From the IMG/VR virus record IMGVR_UViG_3300042556_002257, positions 1-27,773 of that record: a DNA stretch of 27,773 bases; one strand, given 5' to 3'. Position 1 is the stretch's first letter, and each line of letters begins with the position of its first letter. Of this stretch, positions 3,015 to 23,413 are shown one piece after another. This DNA comes from a virus. Position numbers and translations under genes: made by a program. The notes beneath the pieces were generated by a model that made no database searches, had not been told where the DNA came from, and saw only the letters and a list, made by a program, of their open reading frames with translations.

Positions 3015-5591
3015 TTAGTCCTGCTCTTGGAGGGCTGTCACTGTGGTCGTGGTTCCGGTAGCGATCGAGACTTGCGTGACCCACGGTCGGTAGGTCGTGG
3101 CACCGCTGGCGTTTCGGGCCTCCACGCGAACCGCTCCGGTGTAGGCCATGTCGAGCGTCAGTGAGGTTCCGGCGGTCGAGTCCTGCGCCAGTAGCGCCCC
3201 AGTGTCCAACCGCGTCACCTTCACGCGGCTGCCCGCGACAAGGCCCGACACCGTGAGCAGCGCCCCGGGCAGCGGGTACTCGCGCTGCTGGTCGGTTGCG
3301 GTGGTCGTCGTGGCGATGGTGATGTAGGTCAGGAGGTTCGTGGCGGATGCCGCGTTCACCGTAGCCCGCACGCGGAGCTTCACGCCGACGGCAGGGTTCA
3401 CGCTCACGCTCGCGAGGTTCGCGCCGGTCAAGGCCGTCCATGTACCGTTCCAGCCGCTTCCGGTGTCCGCCTGAAACTGGAGCGTGTGGTTGGCGGTGCT
3501 CGTGCCGGTGATCGTGGGGGCCGTGTTGGCGAACCCCGTGACCCCCAGGGCGAAGTACGGCATCTCCCAAATTACTGAATCAGTTAGCAGCTTCATCGCT
3601 ACGTTCCCCGATGCAGTAAAGCCGGAGCCGACGCCGAGAGATGCAGTGCATTGAGCGAGAGACTCAGCGGTTGGTTCGTTACATGCGAGCAGGATGAACC
3701 CAGCAGTTGTCGAGGTCCATCCATCCATCCAGTGCGTCCCATAAACGTAAAATTGACCTGTGGTCGTCGGCGTGTAGCGCCCGCCTCGCAGTGTAGAGTT
3801 TTGGCAGGTGTTGATTTGCACGTCCGCCGCATCACCCCAACAGTTGTACGCCTCGAAACCAACCGCGGGCGATGCCGGACTGACCATCGCTAGCCTGAGA
3901 TTTGTGCCGTAACAGCGTCGCATGACCACACCCAGGCAGGTTGAGAGTAGCGCTAGGTATGCGCACTGGTTCGCACTGCCACCGTCGTAAGGGGTCGAGG
4001 ACGTGCCTATATTTTTGATCTCGATGTTGTTTCCGCTCGGGATGTTTACTATTCCGTTATACGGGTGCGCGTTCGCAATGCTGTCAAAATTACTGAAGCC
4101 ATCAACCGTCACCGTGTCCGAGCCGCCTGTGATTGTTACGCCGAAGTGCGCGTCAGTTTGCGTTGTACCTATTGACCTGCTCGCATATTTAGTGCCGATA
4201 ACCTTGACTCGCGTGCATGGAGTTAACGTGAACCCGATTCCACCAATGGCAACGCAGTCAGTGAACGTGGAGTCCACCAGTCGAGTGGCCTGTATCGCAC
4301 GAGCCGATGCACCGGGGGCATTGGTTCCGGTCGTTCCAAACGAAATGCACTTCAGCCCAGTAACCGTGTATTTCGCGACGTCTGTTATTGCGAAAGCCAC
4401 AGAGTTGACCGCATTGTTGGCGATATACACATCTTCTACAGTGGTCCCTGCGTAACTGTTTAGGATTGAGAATGGGGATGCACCCGCCATATCAACCACG
4501 AGCCCGACGCCTACGTTCCGAAACACAGCGGTGGCGGTAATCGTATTGAATGACGTTGCTCCGGCAATGCCTGTATTTTGTATGCTGACCGAGTAGGTGG
4601 AACTTCCGGCGACGTTCCATCCGCACGAGGCGTAGTTGATATTTAGAGACCCCCCCGGAGTTTGGTATCCGAAGCGAAAGGTCATGCTGCTGGGCGCGAT
4701 ATTCACGGCGTAATTACCGGGTTCGGCGCTCGAAAGTATGACATTCGGAATACGAACTTTACATCCCGTTGGCGGTTTCAAGCCTGCATTGTTTGCCCCA
4801 CGTGCTGCGATTGTTATGACGCCGGTTGAGCCGTCGCAGTTGAAAAACATTCCTCGTTTATCGCTTGTTGCGACGGCGCCGTCCGTCCATCTCGTGTGGG
4901 CGTTGAGCCAGATTTCGTAGACGCCAGAACCAGCAGAATTCTCAATCCAAATCGCTGGGCAAATATCAGACACAGGGTATTGAAAAGTCTGGTTGTCGTT
5001 TCCGTTTGTGGTGCCGAGTTCGTACCAGTCGCCGGTGATCGAGTGCGTACCTAGTCGTGGAATGGACAGGCGGGAACCTGCTGCCGTCAACGAACCTCGA
5101 CCGACAACGTGAATCCATGACCGCCTGCCTGCGCTGCTCGCCGTGACCGTCGCCCCGCCGGGCAGCGTGATGGTTTCGCCGGCCTGGAAACTGCCTGACC
5201 TGGAGCGGAGTTTGATGTAGCCCGTCGCAGGCATCGCACCGCCCGCTGCGGCAGGAGTGAGCGAGCCGGTCGCCCACACTCGCGTCAGTTCGCCCGTTGC
5301 GCCGCTGGTTCCGCCCGTGACGCCGTTTGAGCCGAGGGCGGCCTGCGTCGGCACGTTTCCGGTCGATGCCGAAAATGGCACCTCCCACACCTGCGTCCCG
5401 TCAATCAAAAACGATCCGCCCAGCGACGACGAGATTGTCACTGCGCCAAACACGGCGGCCTGCTGGTTCCATCGCACATCTGCACTTACCGTGACGCTGC
5501 CGCCGTTGATCGTGATCGACTCGCCGTCGAGGAGGCCCGAGATCGAGGCCGCGTCGTAGTTGACGGTCGTGGTGACTGTCTGGCTAGCCAT
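3015..5591 (-). CDS. Large tail fibre or tailspike-like protein, 858 aa
   Basis: The start ATG at 5591 lies inside the end of the previous gene (8-base overlap), with GGGTGG close upstream. Residues 1-160 are a Gly/Thr/Ser-rich beta N-terminus (SGLLDGESITINGGSVTVSA) suited to virion attachment. Residues about 160-670 are rich in N, T, S, G and I, with short-strand periodicity typical of a right-handed parallel beta-helix. Residues about 670-858 return to an Ig-like, Ala/Thr/Val-rich pattern. The DNA of the middle segment (about 3560-5110) is clearly AT-richer than both flanks, which suggests exchange of the receptor-binding part. No glycosidase or lyase motif could be assigned by eye. It is probably the host-range determinant. 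Confidence 0.85.
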   Translation of the reverse strand: MASQTVTTTVNYDAASISGLLDGESITINGGSVTVSADVRWNQQAAVFGAVTISSSLGGSFLIDGTQVWEVPFSASTGNVPTQAALGSNGVTGGTSGATGELTRVWATGSLTPAAAGGAMPATGYIKLRSRSGSFQAGETITLPGGATVTASSAGRRSWIHVVGRGSLTAAGSRLSIPRLGTHSITGDWYELGTTNGNDNQTFQYPVSDICPAIWIENSAGSGVYEIWLNAHTRWTDGAVATSDKRGMFFNCDGSTGVITIAARGANNAGLKPPTGCKVRIPNVILSSAEPGNYAVNIAPSSMTFRFGYQTPGGSLNINYASCGWNVAGSSTYSVSIQNTGIAGATSFNTITATAVFRNVGVGLVVDMAGASPFSILNSYAGTTVEDVYIANNAVNSVAFAITDVAKYTVTGLKCISFGTTGTNAPGASARAIQATRLVDSTFTDCVAIGGIGFTLTPCTRVKVIGTKYASRSIGTTQTDAHFGVTITGGSDTVTVDGFSNFDSIANAHPYNGIVNIPSGNNIEIKNIGTSSTPYDGGSANQCAYLALLSTCLGVVMRRCYGTNLRLAMVSPASPAVGFEAYNCWGDAADVQINTCQNSTLRGGRYTPTTTGQFYVYGTHWMDGWTSTTAGFILLACNEPTAESLAQCTASLGVGSGFTASGNVAMKLLTDSVIWEMPYFALGVTGFANTAPTITGTSTANHTLQFQADTGSGWNGTWTALTGANLASVSVNPAVGVKLRVRATVNAASATNLLTYITIATTTTATDQQREYPLPGALLTVSGLVAGSRVKVTRLDTGALLAQDSTAGTSLTLDMAYTGAVRVEARNASGATTYRPWVTQVSIATGTTTTVTALQEQD

Positions 5592-13088: not shown

Positions 13089-15254
13089 CTATCGGCCGAG
13101 TTTGGCCAGCAATTCCGCACGCCTGGCGGCCATCTGCTCCGCGGTGATGACGCGGGCCGGGGCCGCCGGCGCACCATCGGCACCGATCGCCGACACGCCG
13201 GAGTAGCTCGCCGCCACCGCCGCCCCGATCAGGCAGTCCCACAGGTGGTTATCCCTGCCGGGGATCAGCCGCCACTCGTCCACCACCCGCTGCCGGCTTT
13301 CCACGCGGACCGGCACCTCGCTCGACAGCTGCTCGGCCAGCATGTCGTGCTCGCCGGCGTGGATCGTCAGCCCTTGCGGGTCGCCGACCGGCAGTTTGAC
13401 GCGGGCGGCCACGAACGTCTTCCAGGCGTTCGTGTCGTAGAGGATGTGCCGCTGCCGCTGGATGGTGCTGGTCCGCCAGTTGGCCCCGATCCGTTCGCCG
13501 CGGTCGGGGGCCTTGTCGCTGATCGTCTGCCCGCTGGCCCCCACGAAGCGGCCGTGCGTCGGCAGCACCCGCGGCCCCCACCGGGAGCGGCGGGCGAAGT
13601 CTCTGACCACGCCCTGCGACTGTGCCCAATTCGCATCGATGCACAACTGGCCAACGCGGAGGACGGCATCGTCCGTCTCGCGGGTGAACTCCCGCTCGAG
13701 CAGATCGCCGGCCAGGGCCTCGAGGCCTGCCAGGATCGCCGCCTCTACGTTTGCACCATGGGCGCGGGACAGCGTCTTCTTTGCATCGCGGAGGGTGAAG
13801 TAGGCCCGGCCCTGGTCCGGGTACGTTCCGTAGGCCACGACGTGCCCGCGGAACTGGTGGCCCCATGCCACGACGGCCCAGTAGAGCAGCTCCTTCTGGA
13901 CGTCCACGAACGCCGTGAGCGTGTCGAGGCCGCGCGGCACGGTCCAGCGCGGGACGTTGATGATGCGGCTGGTCACGTCGGCCGGCTGGAGCCCGTCCGC
14001 CCTGGAGGCGTCTTCCAGGGGGTCATTCTGGAACTCGGCAGCAAACGCCGCCTCGCCGCGGTCGATGCGGAGGTTCCAGGCGTGTTGAATCGCCGACAAC
14101 TCGTCGGCTTGTTTGCGGGCTGGCCAGCCGACCTTGGCTCCGGCGTCCATGGCCTCGCGGTGCTTGGCGTAGAACTCGTCGGCCGCGGCCGTGCCATGGC
14201 CGTCTCGTTGACCACGCCGCCGTAGTTCCGCGTACTCGTCCCACAGGGCGGTCGCGGTCGGCCACTGGTAGACCAGCCGGAAGCGGCGGCCTTGCCAGGC
14301 CGGGTGGCGCTCGCGGTCCAGGAGCCGGTCCGCCAGGTCGTCCGGGCAGATGACAGTCACGGTCGCCAGGCCGGCGATCTTCACGCCCGGCCCGGCCAAG
14401 CCAAGGATCGCCCCCTTGAGCACTGCTTCGCGGTTGGCCACCTGGGACGGGCTGCGGGCGGATTCGTCCGTCTGCGGATCGTCGATGAGCACGAGCGAGG
14501 GCCGGACCTTGCGTCCGTCCGCCGCCCGCTTCGCGGTCATGCCTCGGATCCGCCCGGTGATGCCGGCCACGCGGATGATGCCGCTGGATGCCGGCGAACC
14601 GGGGATCGTCGGGAATTGCACCTCGTTGGCCGTCCACTGGATGTGGGTCGGCTTGCCGTGGTACAGCTGCCCCTTCGCCCGCTGGTGAATCCGCTCCAGG
14701 GCCACGATCGGAAACACCGCCTCGGGGAAGTCCTCGAGGAGCAGCTCGTTGGTTTCGCACTCGACCTTGATGCTGTCCAGCATGGTCGAGGCGTGCCCTT
14801 CATCGCTGCCGATGATCGTGACGAACTCGCGGTAGCCGTAGAGCAAGGCCCAGAGCGCCGCCGCCTCCACGAGCGACGTTTTGCCGGAGCCGCGGGCCAT
14901 GGCAAACGCCAGCAGCTCGCCGCGGATCACCGCGGCCTCCACCGCCGCGATCGTCTCCAGGTGGTCGTCGGACCATTCCAGGCAGAACGTCGCCGGCATG
15001 TAGGATTCGCAGAACGATCGGAACGATGCCCGCGCCGCGTCCTTGCGGGCCTGGTTCACGACTTTCGGCATCTCGCCGATATCGCGGCCGGACTCAGAAA
15101 GCTCGGACTGGCGGCGGGCGGCGCGGTCCTTGTGGGATTCGTAGGCGTTTCCTGGCGTGCCCAGCTTCTTGCGGGCCTGCCGGATTTCCTTCAGGTCACG
15201 CTCGAGCTGGCGTTCCTTCTCGCGAGCGCGTTTGAGGACGTTGTCGCCGCTCAT
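13089..15254 (-). CDS. Terminase large subunit, GpA-like
   Basis: The 721-residue packaging motor starts at ATG 15254, overlapping the methyltransferase stop as ATGA. Residues 1-75 form a charged helical extension. The ATPase has Walker A MARGSGKT (119-126), Walker B LVLIDD (254-259) and coupling motif LATVT (296-300). The C-terminal half carries the nuclease-type acidic positions TAFVDVQ, CIDANWAQS and DNHLWDCLIGA expected of the RNase H-like domain of GpA/TerL. It cuts concatemeric DNA and pumps it into the prohead through the portal. No separate small terminase was recognised; one of the small DNA-binding proteins upstream could serve. Confidence 0.93.
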   Translation of the reverse strand: MSGDNVLKRAREKERQLERDLKEIRQARKKLGTPGNAYESHKDRAARRQSELSESGRDIGEMPKVVNQARKDAARASFRSFCESYMPATFCLEWSDDHLETIAAVEAAVIRGELLAFAMARGSGKTSLVEAAALWALLYGYREFVTIIGSDEGHASTMLDSIKVECETNELLLEDFPEAVFPIVALERIHQRAKGQLYHGKPTHIQWTANEVQFPTIPGSPASSGIIRVAGITGRIRGMTAKRAADGRKVRPSLVLIDDPQTDESARSPSQVANREAVLKGAILGLAGPGVKIAGLATVTVICPDDLADRLLDRERHPAWQGRRFRLVYQWPTATALWDEYAELRRRGQRDGHGTAAADEFYAKHREAMDAGAKVGWPARKQADELSAIQHAWNLRIDRGEAAFAAEFQNDPLEDASRADGLQPADVTSRIINVPRWTVPRGLDTLTAFVDVQKELLYWAVVAWGHQFRGHVVAYGTYPDQGRAYFTLRDAKKTLSRAHGANVEAAILAGLEALAGDLLEREFTRETDDAVLRVGQLCIDANWAQSQGVVRDFARRSRWGPRVLPTHGRFVGASGQTISDKAPDRGERIGANWRTSTIQRQRHILYDTNAWKTFVAARVKLPVGDPQGLTIHAGEHDMLAEQLSSEVPVRVESRQRVVDEWRLIPGRDNHLWDCLIGAAVAASYSGVSAIGADGAPAAPARVITAEQMAARRAELLAKLGR

Positions 15255-16498
15255 TCATTGGCTCGTGTGGCCTTCTTGCCGGTCAGCGTTTCCCACCGCT
15301 TCACAATCACGTCGCAATACTGCGGGCTGATCTCCATGCCGTAGCACTTGCGGCCGAGTTGTTCGGCGGCGATCAGCGTGGTGCCGGTTCCGCAGAATGG
15401 ATCCGCGACCGTTTTGGCTTCACGGCAAAGCGACTGCATGAACCAAGCCGGCAGCTCCAGCGGAAAGACCGCCCGGTGTTTGTCGGCTTGGTCGTTCTTA
15501 CCTCGTGGGTCAAGCCGCAGCACGTTTGACAGTGTGCCGTGAAAGTCAGCGAAGGGCACCGCCCGCGACGCGTTGCCTCCGAACACGAAGCAAAACTCGA
15601 AAGCGTTCGACAATACATTCGCTTGCATCTGCGGGGCGGCGTTGATCTTGTCCCATACGATCACGTCGACCAGATCGTCCGCCCGATCGGCGAGCCATCG
15701 GATCATCGCCCGCTTGTTGTCGGCGAGCATTTGGACATTACATATCACGCACTCGCTCACGGGCCGAAACGCAGCGAACCAGCCCGCCATAAGATCCGGC
15801 CACGAGTCCGGATCGTCTTCGTGCTGGTCGTAGAACGATTCGCGCTTTGCGGCCCCAGGGATGTAGTGATCTCGCAGCTTGGCAACGTTGGCCGCACCGT
15901 AAGGCGGCGACGTGAAACAAAGGTCCGCCTTCGCCCCAGCCATCAGCCGCTCGACATCTTCCGCCTTCGTCGAGTCGCCGCACAGCAGGCGATGCTCCCC
16001 TAGCAGCCACAGGTCGCCCGGCTTCGTGATCGGATCGACCGGCGGCTCGGGGACCTCGTCCTCGACGATTTCCTTCGCATCGTCCTGGTAGAGTCCAGCC
16101 TCTTCCGCCAAGTCCGCAAGTAGCTGCTGAACGTCCGGTGAACCGGTATCGACTTCGCGGAGGATCGCGTCCAGCTTGGCCGCATCGGCTTCCGCCATCG
16201 CGGCCAGCGGGTCGAGCGTCGCGAGGATCTTGTCGGCCTCTGCTTCGTTGACGTCGAGGACCAGGACCGGAACTTCCTCTTCGCCGATCGTCTCTGCCCG
16301 CAGGTGCCCGTCGATGAGCATGAGCGAACCGTCTTCCAGTTCACGGGCGAGAACGGCGTCAGCCATCCCAACCTCCGACAACAGGCCGCGGAGGGCGTTC
16401 GCCTGGGCTTCCGGGTGGGTTCGCCAGTTCTTGGGGTTCGGCCGCAAGTCGGATGCGGGCACGCGGCGTAGTTCGCGGATTCGGTCGCGGATTTTCAT
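15251..16498 (-). CDS. ParB-domain DNA methyltransferase
   Basis: This 415-residue fusion starts at ATG 16498 with AAGGA nine bases upstream. Residues 10-95 form a ParB/Srx-like domain (LRPNPKNWRTHPEAQANALRG, then LIDGHLRAE at 62-69). The rest is an amino-methyltransferase with motif IV TSPPY (196-200) before motif I DPFCGTGTT (366-374) and GMEI (387-390), the beta-class order; N6-adenine or N4-cytosine is expected. The target site is unknown. Genes of this type often accompany phage terminases. They may protect phage DNA or mark packaging or replication sites. No cognate restriction enzyme is visible, so it appears to be an orphan. Confidence 0.93.
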   Translation of the reverse strand: MKIRDRIRELRRVPASDLRPNPKNWRTHPEAQANALRGLLSEVGMADAVLARELEDGSLMLIDGHLRAETIGEEEVPVLVLDVNEAEADKILATLDPLAAMAEADAAKLDAILREVDTGSPDVQQLLADLAEEAGLYQDDAKEIVEDEVPEPPVDPITKPGDLWLLGEHRLLCGDSTKAEDVERLMAGAKADLCFTSPPYGAANVAKLRDHYIPGAAKRESFYDQHEDDPDSWPDLMAGWFAAFRPVSECVICNVQMLADNKRAMIRWLADRADDLVDVIVWDKINAAPQMQANVLSNAFEFCFVFGGNASRAVPFADFHGTLSNVLRLDPRGKNDQADKHRAVFPLELPAWFMQSLCREAKTVADPFCGTGTTLIAAEQLGRKCYGMEISPQYCDVIVKRWETLTGKKATRANE

Positions 16499-19034: not shown

Positions 19035-19358
19035 TCACCGCGATCTTGTGTTCCGATACATCGCCTCACGCCCGCCGGTCCCCGACCGGCACTCGCCGCA
19101 TCGCTCGATCCGCCCCGCGTCCCGCAGCTCCTTGAGCCGCTTGCTGACCGCGGCGACCGTCAGCCCTGTGCGCTTGGCGATCTCGCTCTGCCCTGCCGGC
19201 CCGCCCACCAGGGCCTCGACGATGGCCTCGCGGTGCCCGCCGGCGGTGCTCGCCGCCCGCTTCGCGGCCGCGTGCGATGTCGCGGGGTCGGTGGCCCTGG
19301 CTCGCGGCTGCGAGAACAGCGGCCCGTAGTCGATCGTCTGCGGGTAGTAGTCGCTCAT
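19035..19358 (-). CDS. Winged-helix regulator, 107 aa
   Basis: ATG 19358 has AAGGAG eight bases upstream. After a polar start (RATDPATSHAAAKRAA), common in phage HTH proteins, come HREAIVEALVGGPAGQSEIAKRTGLTVAAVSKRLKELRDAGRIER, an ArsR/MarR-type winged helix with clear recognition helix, and a Cys-containing end (CGECRSGTG) that could bind metal with the wing. It may act on DNA in the replication or late region. It precedes the AlpA-like gene in the same direction, with a 55-base gap that may hold a promoter. No effector domain is present. Confidence 0.8.
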   Translation of the reverse strand: MSDYYPQTIDYGPLFSQPRARATDPATSHAAAKRAASTAGGHREAIVEALVGGPAGQSEIAKRTGLTVAAVSKRLKELRDAGRIERCGECRSGTGGREAMYRNTRSR

Positions 19359-19522
19359 GTCTCACGCTCCTTCGTGTATTTGCCCGGATACGCCGGGCGC
19401 GGCAGGATCACCGGCCGGAGTGACCACCGGCTCCTGCTGCGGGTGTTGTCAGACGACCGCCCGCGGCGTCCTCCCTGTGGCCTTGATGCCAGCAGCCACT
19501 TCGGCCGGGAGCGGCCGGTGTT

Positions 19523-20483: not shown

Positions 20484-20698
20484 GTCTGCACCTCTGGGCT
20501 ATGGGTCTCACCGATCCGCGTCACGACCGGGTTCGCCCGGCCCGCCTCGATCCCGATTGCATGAGCCGCGATCAGGGCCTCGTGCAGCCCAAGGTCTCCG
20601 GCCCGACACTTCCGCTCCACGTCCGCCAGCCGCTCGGCCGCGGTCGTGATCTCGGCCTTCCGCTTGGCCCGCCACGGGGCCGCGTCATGCCACGACAT
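20480..20698 (-). CDS. Small helical protein, 72 aa
   Basis: This gene sits between the Sak4-like ATPase (14-base overlap) and the SSB-like gene (ATGA-type overlap). The sequence is helical: SWHDAAPWRAKRKAEITTAA, then ERLADVERKCRAGDLGLHEALIAAHAIG, ending in a polar tail. No motif is recognised. The tight overlaps suggest translation in fixed ratio with the recombination proteins. The clear overlapping layout is the main argument that the ORF is real. Confidence 0.65.
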   Translation of the reverse strand: MSWHDAAPWRAKRKAEITTAAERLADVERKCRAGDLGLHEALIAAHAIGIEAGRANPVVTRIGETHSPEVQT

Positions 20699-21662
20699 TG
20701 GCGGCCTCCTTCGGCTCGAGCACGTCGTGCCGGGCCGCGATCGCCGCCCGCAGGGCGTCCGCCTGGTCGGCGGTCAGCTGGCCGTCGGATTCGTAGGCGT
20801 CGATCTTGTCGCCCACCTTGCCCAGCGTGGCCACCGTCTTCGCCTCGGCGATGAACGTGGCCATCCGCTCGTGCAACGGCGGCTCGTCGCTTGGTGCCGC
20901 CGCCGGGGCCGTACCCGTAAACAGCGGCCGGAGCGTGTCGATGCTCATGGGCATCGACTCCGGCAGGCCGAACCGGTTCTTGGCATCCCATGCCGCCGAC
21001 CTCTGACAGTGCATGATCCGCTCCTTCCCGCCGCGGCCCTTCATGCGGCCGTCGTCCCCCTCGGTGACGATCGTGCGGTAGTTGAGGAACAGCAGCAGGT
21101 CGCACCATTCCTTGAACAGCGGCCCGACTTGCTTGTGCATCTTCAGTTCGTAGCGATCAAACCCGTCCGTTTGATCTGGCGGACTGACGCGAACAGACTT
21201 TGAATGCGCGACCCATACAACGTTCAGCCCAGCCCGCACCATCTCGTCGCATGTCGCCAAGCATTTGCTGACGATTTCGGCAAGCATTACGTAGCCCTTG
21301 CCGTATCCGTAATCTTCGATAGACGTCCGTTTCTTTTCCTTGTCGCTCTCCAGCAGGTGAGTCGTCGCAAGAGACTCGGCCCAGTCAGCGGAGTCGATCA
21401 CCACAGTCTCGTAACCCTCCCTGTCGCGAATCAGTTGGTGCATCACACCCAAAAGATCAACCCACTTCCGAATCACTGGATCGTGTTCGTCCCTCGGATT
21501 AGGGACACGTTCAACATCGAAATGGACAGTGCTGCCCTCTGTGTCCAGGAACACTGGCCGCGGAAACTGGCTTGCGAGCGTCGTCTTTCCGATGCCCTCA
21601 ACGCCGTACAACACGACACGCAGCGGCTTGCGAAGCCTGCCCTTTGAAATCTTCAGTCCCAT
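20685..21662 (-). CDS. Sak4-like RecA-family ATPase
   Basis: The start is ATG 21662 (MGLKISKGRL) with GGAGG six bases upstream; a 14-codon extension to 21704 is Arg-rich and rejected. Walker A is GVEGIGKTT (20-28). LDTEGSTVHFD follows, and TVVIDSADW (86-94) serves as Walker B. This is the RecA-core layout of Sak4-type phage annealing ATPases, which work with an SSB. VVWVAHSK is a sensor-like strand. The C-terminal third (from about residue 240) is Ala-rich and helical. DNA from about 21150 to 21640 is AT-richer than both flanks, a sign of mosaic origin. Confidence 0.85.
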   Translation of the reverse strand: MGLKISKGRLRKPLRVVLYGVEGIGKTTLASQFPRPVFLDTEGSTVHFDVERVPNPRDEHDPVIRKWVDLLGVMHQLIRDREGYETVVIDSADWAESLATTHLLESDKEKKRTSIEDYGYGKGYVMLAEIVSKCLATCDEMVRAGLNVVWVAHSKSVRVSPPDQTDGFDRYELKMHKQVGPLFKEWCDLLLFLNYRTIVTEGDDGRMKGRGGKERIMHCQRSAAWDAKNRFGLPESMPMSIDTLRPLFTGTAPAAAPSDEPPLHERMATFIAEAKTVATLGKVGDKIDAYESDGQLTADQADALRAAIAARHDVLEPKEAANVVA

Positions 21663-21877
21663 TCTTCGCCTCCCTTCTCGGCGTGCTCGTCGATTGCAAC
21701 GCACAACCGCAGCACGACCTCCGGTGGAATCACGTAATGACCCTTCATCCCTGTGTGCCGCATCCGCTGCACGAGCAGCCGCGCGACCTTCACCACCTCG
21801 GCCGCTTTGGCGTAGTGGTAGGACAGTCGCCCTACACGTTGCCTCTGCTCACCCGTCCGAATCGCCCGTGGCAACAT
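21653..21877 (-). CDS. Small basic protein translated from within csrA end, 74 aa
   Basis: The likely start is ATG 21877, nine bases after GGAGG (21891-21887 region), so the gene overlaps the csrA 3' end by 29 bases and the Sak4 start by 10. The product is MLPRAIRTGEQRQRVGRLSY, then HYAKAAEVVKVARLLVQRMRHTGMKG, then an acidic end (AIDEHAEKGGEEWD). Its ribosome site and start codon lie in two GGA motifs resembling CsrA targets, so CsrA may block its translation. Function unknown. An upstream ATG at 21901 has no good site. Confidence 0.7.
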   Translation of the reverse strand: MLPRAIRTGEQRQRVGRLSYHYAKAAEVVKVARLLVQRMRHTGMKGHYVIPPEVVLRLCVAIDEHAEKGGEEWD

Positions 21878-22079
21878 CCGTGGTGCCCTCCGTGTAGACA
21901 TGCAGTTCCGGCAGTTCGTCTCGCCGCACGAGCACCGCGGCCGGAGCCGTGATGCCGAGCTTGGCCACAGGCCGGCCGCTGGCCAGCTTGCGGATGTCGG
22001 TCACCATGACGTCGATCCGGGTGCCGTCGGGGCAGGTGAGCACCAGCCCCTCGTCCACCTTCCTGCTCAAGATCAGCAC
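21849..22079 (-). CDS. csrA: Carbon storage regulator CsrA homologue
   Basis: The start is GTG 22079 with AAGGAG eight bases upstream. The 76-residue protein reads MLILSRKVDEGLVLTCPDGT, RIDVMVTDIRKLASGRPVAKLGITAPAAVLVRRDEL. It keeps the MLIL(S/T)RK start, the G(V/I)xAP turn and VxR(R/E)DE of CsrA, with a slightly longer loop and a polar C-terminal tail. CsrA dimers bind GGA motifs in mRNA leaders and change translation or decay. Here it is part of the early operon, not a flagellar or metabolic one. It could act on phage genes (the next gene has two GGA motifs at its start) or redirect host metabolism. Confidence 0.92.
   Translation of the reverse strand: MLILSRKVDEGLVLTCPDGTRIDVMVTDIRKLASGRPVAKLGITAPAAVLVRRDELPELHVYTEGTTDVATGDSDG
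21874..21897 (-). promoter_or_regulatory. Candidate CsrA-binding region over a start codon
   Basis: On the minus strand CUACACGGAGGG (21897-21886) holds the ribosome site and CCACGGAUGUUG (21883-21872) holds the start codon of the 74-residue gene. The two GGA cores are 12 bases apart. CsrA sites have a GGA core with flanking ACA and UGU; each copy keeps much of that. Binding by the csrA product of the overlapping gene is inferred. Confidence 0.45.
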
Positions 22080-22131: not shown

Positions 22132-22476
22132 CTACCTGCGGCTCCTTTGCCGCTCCTTCCCGCTGGCTTCCGAGCCCGCGGTCTCCTGATTGACTTGCTC
22201 GCCGGCCTGCCTGCCGCCGGCGATGATCGGGGCCGAACCGTAGGCCGGCTTGAGCCGCTCCAATTCGCGGAGCCGATCCAGGGCCACGGCGTCGTCGATG
22301 AGGGCCACGCCCAACTGCGGCAGCACGGCCGTCAGCCGGTCGCGGGCCTCGACGATCACGTCGTAGGCTGCGAGGTTGTCGCCGAGCGTCAGCCGCTTCT
22401 CGATCGGCATCCGCATGGCGTCCGCCAGCGGCAGCGCGCTCCGGCAGTCCTTGCACCGGTGCAGCCGGCCGACCAT
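22132..22476 (-). CDS. Small CxxC protein, about 114 aa
   Basis: ATG 22476 (MVGRLHRCKDCRSALPLADA) is the first good in-frame start. The frame looks coding up to about 22508, so a CTG start overlapping the upstream TGA is possible. C8-x-x-C11 is a single CxxC pair, suggestive of metal binding by dimerisation. The rest is helical (LGDNLAAYDVIVEARDRLTAVLPQLG, then DDAVALDRLRELERLKP) with a polar C-terminus. Longer frames to 22770 run antiparallel to the neighbouring gene and are rejected at the N-terminus. Unknown function, early operon. Confidence 0.65.
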   Translation of the reverse strand: MVGRLHRCKDCRSALPLADAMRMPIEKRLTLGDNLAAYDVIVEARDRLTAVLPQLGVALIDDAVALDRLRELERLKPAYGSAPIIAGGRQAGEQVNQETAGSEASGKERQRSRR

Positions 22477-22505
22477 GTCGTAGCCGGCCGCGATGGCGTC
22501 CTCGA

Positions 22506-22724
22506 TCAGCCGGAGCCGTTGAGCATCTCGCGAAGATCCGCAGGGCAGTGCGGTGCCTGCCACCGGTACTCGCTGAACTGGGCACGGCTGATCCGCTCGG
22601 CTTCGCTCCAGCCCATGCGAATCACCGCACAGGCGGCCCGAATCTGCAGCGGGTTGGGATCCGGCTGCCGGCTGAACTCCCCGCCGCGTTGCCCGAGTCG
22701 CGAATCGCGTTCGTCCTTGAACAT
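22506..22724 (-). CDS. Small protein, 72 aa
   Basis: ATG 22724 has a strong GGGAGG five bases upstream. The product starts MFKDERDSRLGQRGGEFSRQ and continues PDPNPLQIRAACAVIRMGWSEAERISRAQF, an amphipathic helix pair followed by SEYRWQAPHCPADLREMLNG. No enzyme motif is present. The helix-loop-helix with Arg and Trp could bind DNA or a protein partner. It is the first gene after the early leftward promoter and operator at about 22795-22853, so it is probably expressed immediately after infection. Confidence 0.72.
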   Translation of the reverse strand: MFKDERDSRLGQRGGEFSRQPDPNPLQIRAACAVIRMGWSEAERISRAQFSEYRWQAPHCPADLREMLNGSG

Positions 22725-22794
22725 CTCGACCTCCCTTCCGGGCGGCCGACTGCTTCTTGCTCGTTGCCATCGGCGCGTCCCTCGCCTTGGTTCC

Positions 22795-22814
22795 CGTCGA
22801 TCGCGGTGATCGAC
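22795..22814. promoter_or_regulatory. Palindromic operator candidate at early promoter
   Basis: CGTCGATC (22795-22802) and GATCGACG (22808-22814 and one base more) are exact inverted repeats around gcggt. The palindrome covers about +5 to +24 of the predicted early leftward transcript. It is the best candidate for binding by the adjacent XRE-type regulator. Confidence 0.5.
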
Positions 22815-22824
22815 GTTGGGCGAG

Positions 22825-22853
22825 GTTCTACGCGACACTTCAGAACTCGTCAA
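22825..22853 (-). promoter_or_regulatory. Early leftward promoter
   Basis: On the minus strand TTGACG (22853-22848) and TAGAAC (22830-22825) are spaced by 17 bases. This is upstream of the small-gene/csrA/Sak4 operon and just downstream of the XRE gene. TTATAA with a small palindrome (22862-22876) lies farther up and could be a second element. Predicted from sequence only. Confidence 0.5.
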
Positions 22854-22887
22854 TGCCAAGTTATAAAGCGTGCTTTGCAGCAAAAAA

Positions 22888-23175
22888 CTAGAGGGCGGCC
22901 ACAAGCCTGTCGGACGGGATGCCCAGGGCGCGGGCGAGCTTTGCCAGCGTCATGCCGCTCGGGTTTTTGGTCTTCCCGCGGCGGATGTCATTGAGTGCCA
23001 CGAAGGTGATTCCTGCCTTCGCGGCAACTTCATCCAGGTGCAGCCCTGCGGCATCGGCCGCTTGTTCAATCACGACGCCGAGCCGGCAGGACGGCGTCCT
23101 CCGTGGGGCACCGCCAGCGTGGCGGGCCTTTTTGGCCTTTGGGCGGCGCGAATGTCGGGTGCTGACGGTCGCCAT
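22888..23175 (-). CDS. XRE-family transcription regulator
   Basis: ATG 23175 is supported by GGAGGG six bases upstream. After a basic leader (RHSRRPKAKKARHAGGAPRR) comes a Cro/C1-type helix-turn-helix: LGVVIEQAADAAGLHLDEVAAKAGITFVALNDIRRGKTKNPSGMTLAKLARALG. No peptidase or oligomerisation domain is present, so it is Cro-like or a small repressor. It is encoded between the attachment site and the early leftward promoter, the usual place for a lysogeny switch. Candidate operators are the palindromes at 22795-22815 and 23187-23207. Confidence 0.85.
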   Translation of the reverse strand: MATVSTRHSRRPKAKKARHAGGAPRRTPSCRLGVVIEQAADAAGLHLDEVAAKAGITFVALNDIRRGKTKNPSGMTLAKLARALGIPSDRLVAAL

Positions 23176-23186
23176 TTTCCGCCCTC

Positions 23187-23207
23187 CGGTGCCAATTCTT
23201 TGCACCG
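23187..23207. promoter_or_regulatory. Inverted repeat upstream of the XRE gene
   Basis: CGGTGC (23187-23192) and GCACCG (23202-23207) are perfect six-base arms around a nine-base AT-rich centre. They lie just upstream of the ribosome site of the XRE gene. An autoregulatory operator is likely; it may also act as a leader hairpin. Confidence 0.4.
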
Positions 23208-23244
23208 ACTCCAGACTGATCCTATGGTCAATCGAGGAGCCGAA

Positions 23245-23294
23245 TACACCCGGAAGGGCTCGAACCTTCAACCTTCGGTTCCGTAGACCGATGC
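23245..23294 (-). other. tRNA-Arg(ACG) 3' fragment, candidate attP core
   Basis: On the minus strand the anticodon stem TCGGT, loop CTACGGA (anticodon ACG) and ACCGA are followed by a T arm GAAGG-TTCGAGC-CCTTC and 3' acceptor CGGGTGTA. The 5' half (D arm and acceptor) is missing. Phages that integrate into tRNA genes carry just such a 3' piece to rebuild the gene. The integrase starts about 120 bases away. The fragment is not itself a functional tRNA. Confidence 0.8.
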
Positions 23295-23413
23295 CGTACC
23301 GAGGGGGTCATTCCCCTGTAGGGATTGTTTTGATTGTGCGGAAAGATTCTGGAGTTTCGGCCACCACTGCCGCATGAAGCGGCTTGTCTCGCGATGGATG
23401 CGAACTACATCAG

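Follow-up and report, generated by a model that had tools for sequence, protein, structure and literature searches.

A perfect palindrome just downstream of an early promoter in a virus record of 27,773 bases (the window, that is, the whole stretch of DNA analyzed) is most likely an RNA element, the upstream member of a hairpin pair in the early-operon leader, and not a repressor site. We regard as moderately probable a model in which this two-hairpin leader acts as RNA, the switch operated by an XRE-type regulator lies at an inverted repeat over the −35 box, and the second hairpin is read by a CsrA-family protein. The direct support for the model comes from sequence, covariation, position, the association with csrA, and the exchange of XRE genes together with their operators.

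On the minus strand, the XRE gene is followed by the promoter, the palindrome (9 nt past the −10 element), and the first ATG at 22770. An earlier sequence-only reading had placed an early-type promoter directly after the XRE gene and ahead of a recombination and replication operon, and its description is accurate: TTGACG (22853–22848) and TAGAAC (22830–22825) are separated by a 17-nt spacer on the minus strand, and the downstream genes comprise g1 and g2 (small and conserved), a csrA homologue, a small gene, and genes for Sak4, an SSB-like protein, a primosomal protein, and a Holliday junction resolvase. The same run also includes, at 15251–16498 (minus strand), a single protein that combines ParB-like and DNA methyltransferase matches. 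The palindrome reported behind the promoter is present at 22815–22795, as an element of 21 bp (8-5-8) rather than 20; the loop given for it, gcggt, is the plus-strand reading of a loop that is ACCGC on the minus strand. The features are collected in Table 1. The XRE regulator scored 39.7 bits against Pfam HTH_3 in its 127-aa form and 40.3 bits over 22888–23172, without the ATG (gathering threshold 23), and falls in the PHROG category of transcriptional regulators. The csrA product matches PHROG 9500 (CsrA-like, 2.4e-05), while a PHROG search with g1 at E up to 0.01 returned no match.

Table 1. Features of the early-operon leader and flanking genes (window coordinates)
Feature	Position	Strand	Remarks
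XRE/Cro-CI type regulator	22888..23175	−	95 aa from ATG at 23175; 127 aa with TTG at 23271
Probable XRE operator, inverted repeat CTTTATAAC-n13-GTTCTGAAG	22838..22868	−	across the −35 box
Early promoter, TTGACG-17-TAGAAC (predicted)	22825..22853	−	equivalent position in relatives
Hairpin 1, CGTCGATC-ACCGC-GATCGACG	22795..22815	−	fold, covariation; begins at about +3 of the inferred transcript
Hairpin 2, GGCG-AGGGACG-CGCC	22772..22786	−	GGA in loop; 1 nt before the first ATG; candidate CsrA-type site
ORF0	22132..22770	−	212 aa; start behind hairpin 2, end inside the conserved g2 part
g1	22506..22724	−	72 aa; lies within ORF0 in frame +1; has a ribosome site of its own
csrA homologue	21849..22079	−	76 aa, GTG start; Pfam PF02599 34.3 bits (gathering 27)
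Small gene between csrA and sak4	21653..21901	−	present in relatives
Sak4-like ssDNA annealing protein	20685..21704	−	PHROG 124, 2.7e-48; AAA_24

The promoter is of moderate strength, with 9 of 12 consensus letters and a final −10 base other than T, and this moderate match accounts for its absence from the list of a simple promoter scan. Perfect palindromes with 8-bp arms and loops of 3 to 8 nt are no rarity in the window (17 seen versus 6.2 ± 2.6 expected); the chance of finding one in a 6-nt range behind a given −10 element is about 0.0013. The window has a single copy of the exact palindrome, and its conservation in relatives makes it more than a chance occurrence. In the loci collected at that stage of the search, a hairpin stood 6–11 nt after a σ70-like −10 element at 36 of 153 distinct plus-strand sites versus 5 of 115 minus-strand sites, some of those 36 matches belonging to unrelated loci (L086, L096, L115, L164, L227). 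Three loci (L060 at 1510, L175 at 542, and L176 at 1396) carry an extra promoter-like site with a long hairpin of its own (TCGTTGATACG...), which in L060 precedes the leader detected with model R1.

Relatives were gathered from viral contigs by XRE and Sak4 searches, and because these loci share kinship, counts among them overstate independence. In the closest (L003, L004, and L011), the elements run integrase (divergent), XRE, promoter, leader, g1, g2, csrA, small gene, sak4. The leader region has no DNA match in 50,697 phage records. A first alignment of 16 leaders (A1) misaligned L026, L034, and L054; these were dropped and L296 was added to give an alignment of 14 (A2), so covariation in the dropped group is uncounted. 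Among the 14 leaders, compensatory changes of the kind expected of a structured RNA were found in the stem of hairpin 1: six of its eight pairs have changed on both sides, and 98.2% of the 112 cells are paired, compared with at most 49.1% when the partner arm was slid. The loop AYCGC is kept on nine different stems. The binding site of a protein dimer has conserved arms and a free spacer; a kept loop between varied arms is the reverse of that expectation and counts toward an RNA stem. When G-T and A-C were scored alike, the hairpin was found in 33 of 48 distinct leaders, with 13 G-T cells versus six A-C cells, on nine and four distinct stems, respectively; five of the six A-C cells (L060, L175, L176, L193, L240) were judged afterwards to lie at non-leader promoters. 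That the stem tolerates G-U is support for an RNA, not proof of one.

Hairpin 1 is present in 35 of 46 leaders versus 160 of 920 random stretches, three of the 35 (L182, L183, L259) resembling other repeats, and under the strict test it is absent from 11 of the 46. Folding of the window leader gives a pair of hairpins with −21.7 kcal/mol (z −2.26; equaled by 3 of 200 shuffles); the leader scores 63.5 bits with model R1, in whose construction it was included. In the L055 group, hairpin 1 begins about 23 nt after the −10 element by hand count, so it need not be strictly 5'-terminal. A CsrA site in hairpin 1 was considered and rejected, since none of the 14 A2 leaders has GGA in this loop; CsrA therefore does not account for hairpin 1. 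Inspected by eye, the AYCGC loop showed no consistent pseudoknot pairing with hairpin 2. In loci L249–L251, hairpins 1 and 2 are separated by a third one, CTGCCAG-ATGCA-CTGGCAG, at about 3940–4000.

In many relatives hairpin 2 reads GGCG-A[A/G]GGA-CGCC and covers the first ribosome site. It thus presents ANGGA in the loop of a short hairpin, the CsrA/RsmA pattern; its loop is 7 nt in the window versus the preferred 6, and is 6 nt in several relatives. Most hairpin-2 loops retain ANGGA while the surrounding letters vary. Of 30 leaders, 24 have a hairpin with GGA in its loop immediately ahead of the first start; the control, 315 starts with a ribosome site from those loci, gave 49 and may itself include some leader starts. 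The cited sections of PMC7652899 describe CsrA/RsmA sites as ANGGAN hexaloops, often at the ribosome site, on hairpins that in SELEX mostly have no more than four pairs, and report that iraD is repressed by CsrA through a short coupled ORF. As far as those sections go, hairpin 2 resembles the targets of CsrA/RsmA repression (glgC, csrA autoregulation, iraD) in its ANGGA loop, short stem, and position at the ribosome site, and the shared features extend to a csrA gene in the same operon and a further start nested in the first ORF. The present case differs from the systems described there in belonging to a phage early operon, in pairing one GGA hairpin with a GGA-less 5' partner, and in being known from sequence. 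A second hairpin, with an AAGGAG loop, lies at 19363–19376 (minus strand) just before the ORF at 19035–19358; it is kept in L003/L005, L021, and L004/L006 and not in L007 or the further relatives listed, and was set aside.

The frame that begins at the first start passes g1 without a stop and terminates within g2 in all 31 loci (near-copies included), where 7.3 of 31 would be expected if g1 had random synonymous codons, and the third frame is open through g1 in one of the 31. From this excess, g1 appears to be nested in another frame of ORF0; at a distance, g1 (frame +1) is the better conserved protein.

The presence of hairpin 2 goes with that of csrA. Of the 36 leader loci, 34 showed a csrA homologue in the first pass and 35 in the second profile round (the miss being L068), with csrA starting about 510–790 nt past the first start codon; the 36 were hand-collected and include near-copies, and the starts of L249 and L250 were set approximately. 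Thirteen of 14 sequences pass the Pfam PF02599 cut-off of 27 bits, L011 failing at 22.4. In a comparison of 125 distinct Sak4-family loci, each with 2 kb or more of sequence ahead of sak4, a strict hairpin-2 motif, defined after the leaders had been seen, is present in 46 of 60 loci with csrA (and absent from the other 14) versus 2 of 65 without, and stands 508–781 nt before csrA; the opposite strand, taken as background, has 23 occurrences in 1793 kb. With a looser definition, the counts were 35 of 60 versus 9 of 65. A Sak4 tree (94 rows, built by a quick method) implies 10 or more changes in csrA. Six supported independent csrA contrasts gave 4.5 in the same direction, none opposite, and 1.5 without difference (p = 0.0625), and 10 motif contrasts gave 3.6, none, and 6.4, respectively (p = 0.125); they agree in direction with the link between csrA and motif and are too few to settle it. 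L010, which is close to the window (Sak4 74%, integrase 94%), has neither csrA nor the strict motif; the looser test finds the hairpin GTGC-ATGGAG-GCAC there, and no hairpin of at least six pairs lies behind its best promoter at 4026.

These data bear on what the phage CsrA does. We consider it unlikely that hairpin 1 is a mere 5' stabilizer and hairpin 2 a mere ribosome-site hairpin, with CsrA a bystander that acts on the host: the hairpin-2 motif tracks the presence of csrA at the distance given above, and ANGGA is kept in most loops amid varying letters. This reading nevertheless draws on the stabilization of some mRNAs by 5' stem-loops (cited part of PMC7509114), on the proposal that phage RsmA/CsrA acts on host functions, for instance against CRISPR-Cas (cited part of PMC8450108), and on tree-controlled contrasts that do not reach 0.05. 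In the cited part of one survey, csrA was present in 30 of 2517 phages, and loss-of-function tests were called for (PMC7366521); in our data, 79 of 50,697 phage records match a composed CsrA query. The window shares with the phages of those two accounts (PMC7366521, PMC8450108) a csrA homologue in the phage genome, and differs from the host effects considered in the parts cited in that a likely self-target within the operon is proposed here. Among the matches listed in the literature on csrA in phages and mobile elements, mostly non-subscription papers, none names a phage CsrA with a target in the operon that encodes it.

Two stem-loops near the 5' end, right behind an early promoter (here a predicted one), also recall the HK022 put RNA, of which putL is described in the cited part of PMC9378689, and the hairpins might then bind RNA polymerase and allow terminator readthrough in the early operon. 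We hold this to be improbable. The leader is about 50 nt long versus about 70 nt for put, hairpin 2 carries the ribosome site and is associated with csrA, and a scan of 22650–23400 with Rfam covariance models (E up to 1) left the leader unmatched; compared with put as set out in that source, the leader is known from its sequence and not from antitermination.

The XRE regulator is likely to repress the promoter, as judged from sequence comparison, by way of the repeat over the −35 box. In a set of 19 distinct loci, each with an XRE gene immediately upstream, similarity among the XRE proteins is correlated with similarity in the 40 bases around the −35 box (Mantel r = 0.485, p = 0.0002) and not with that of the leader carrying the palindrome (r = −0.027, p = 0.56); operator and leader similarity are likewise uncorrelated (r = −0.155, p = 0.92). 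An XRE gene had been picked by eye for 22 of 32 promoters, and removal of the near-copies L003, L041, and L251 left the 19; the ten promoters outside the comparison are L014, L030 (in which an XRE-like ORF is present and was left unpicked), L059, L067, L068, L072, L179, L234, L235, and L296. The inverted repeat has 9 of 9 arm pairs in 16 of the 32 promoters and at least 8 of 9 in 23. In the window, 7 of 9 arm positions pair, a value equaled by 23 of 300 shuffles (14 of 300 in a run on the same sequence in L003); being weak alone, the window repeat owes its assignment as an operator to the relatives. The repeat is a dyad that overlies promoter elements and changes along with the repressor, and the palindrome does not covary with the repressor (r = −0.03 when rounded, p = 0.56, n = 19). 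The repeat at 22838–22868 and its counterparts in relatives also fit the arrangement of CI/Cro-type operators, which we take to lie over the −35 box, and the palindrome does not.

Individual pairs of loci show the same separation. Between the window and L004, similarity is 0.38 for XRE, 0.30 for the operator, and 0.96 for the leader. In L007/L011, L188/L189, and L249/L250, leaders at 0.96, 0.88, and 0.92 accompany XRE similarities of 0.28, 0.27, and 0.31, so that in all four pairs the XRE gene and the −35 repeat change jointly above a near-constant leader. L004 and L011, the one pair in which both XRE (0.92) and operator (0.95) are near-identical, have leaders at 0.67 and different palindromes. 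L007, whose XRE is different and whose leader is L011-like, has an inverted repeat (GTTGTAGGG/CCCTACAAC) between −35 and −10, at 3847–3875.

The sequence-only reading was that the XRE repressor could bind the palindrome just past +1 as a roadblock and so silence the operon in lysogeny. Silencing by XRE is retained as likely, with the −35 repeat as its site; a transcriptional roadblock by an XRE dimer at the palindrome, which a perfect dyad beside the inferred +1 and an adjacent XRE gene would suit, we now judge very unlikely. XRE similarity is linked to the −35 segment and not to the leader, the window and L012 share the palindrome at an XRE similarity of 0.20, and L014, L059, and L234 carry it without an XRE gene directly upstream (by eye). 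The retention of an asymmetric loop while the arms vary, and the G-U changes, also argue against it. A site for some other phage or host DNA-binding protein, despite the perfect dyad and its near-constant distance from the −10 element, is hardly credible given varying arms, an asymmetric loop that is often kept, and the excess of G-U over A-C on the transcribed strand.

The host of the phage is possibly a planctomycete, the phylum of Rhodopirellula being the sole phylum compared. Between the XRE and integrase genes lies the 3' part of a tRNA-Arg(ACG)-like sequence (23243–23308, minus strand; Rfam tRNA 24.7 bits, below the cut-off of 29), which is the probable attP. It is matched in 139 of 392 genomes of that phylum, the best six matches being 92–98% over 43–52 nt, and a tRNA-Arg(acg) is present at all six of these loci. 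The same 392 genomes contain two Sak4 relatives at E up to 1e-40, each 39% identical. The idea of a general planctomycete element was dropped: with the best 150 candidates of each genome scored, one of 21 Planctomycetota genomes had an R1 match at E up to 0.01, and as that locus (L305) has no significant match to eight operon proteins, it was taken as chance.

In the two-hairpin model, the XRE regulator would close the promoter from the inverted repeat over the −35 box. Once the promoter is open, transcription would begin 7–8 nt past the −10 element and yield a leader of about 50 nt, with hairpin 1 first and hairpin 2 at the ribosome site. Near the 5' end, hairpin 1 may stabilize or insulate the leader, protecting the 5' end or keeping hairpin 2 correctly folded. 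Hairpin 2 would offer its A(N)GGA loop, placed where ribosomes bind for the first start codon, to a CsrA-family protein. The likeliest candidate is the CsrA that the phage itself makes from this operon, with host CsrA as the alternative. When abundant, CsrA would block translation of ORF0 together with its coupled genes, providing autoregulation and an early-gene off switch. Here we infer the transcript start, the binding of CsrA, the sign of its effect, and the role of hairpin 1.

The joint variation of regulator and −35 repeat suggests that repressor and operator are swapped together over a little-changed RNA leader. More tentatively, and with less confidence than in the two-hairpin model, we envisage a phage family, possibly of planctomycetes, whose early operon would be under two layers of control, exchangeable XRE-operator cassettes at the promoter and a two-hairpin leader bound by the phage's own CsrA. 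In such a family, hairpin 1 with its AYCGC loop would be an RNA recognition element of a new kind, and a second gene would be nested in another frame of the first ORF. The presence of csrA in phages is already known; what is proposed here from sequence is CsrA-type control of a phage early operon through its leader. In the loci considered here, csrA shares the early operon with a conserved CsrA-type hairpin, which makes self-regulation directly testable with a 50-nt RNA and a 76-aa protein.
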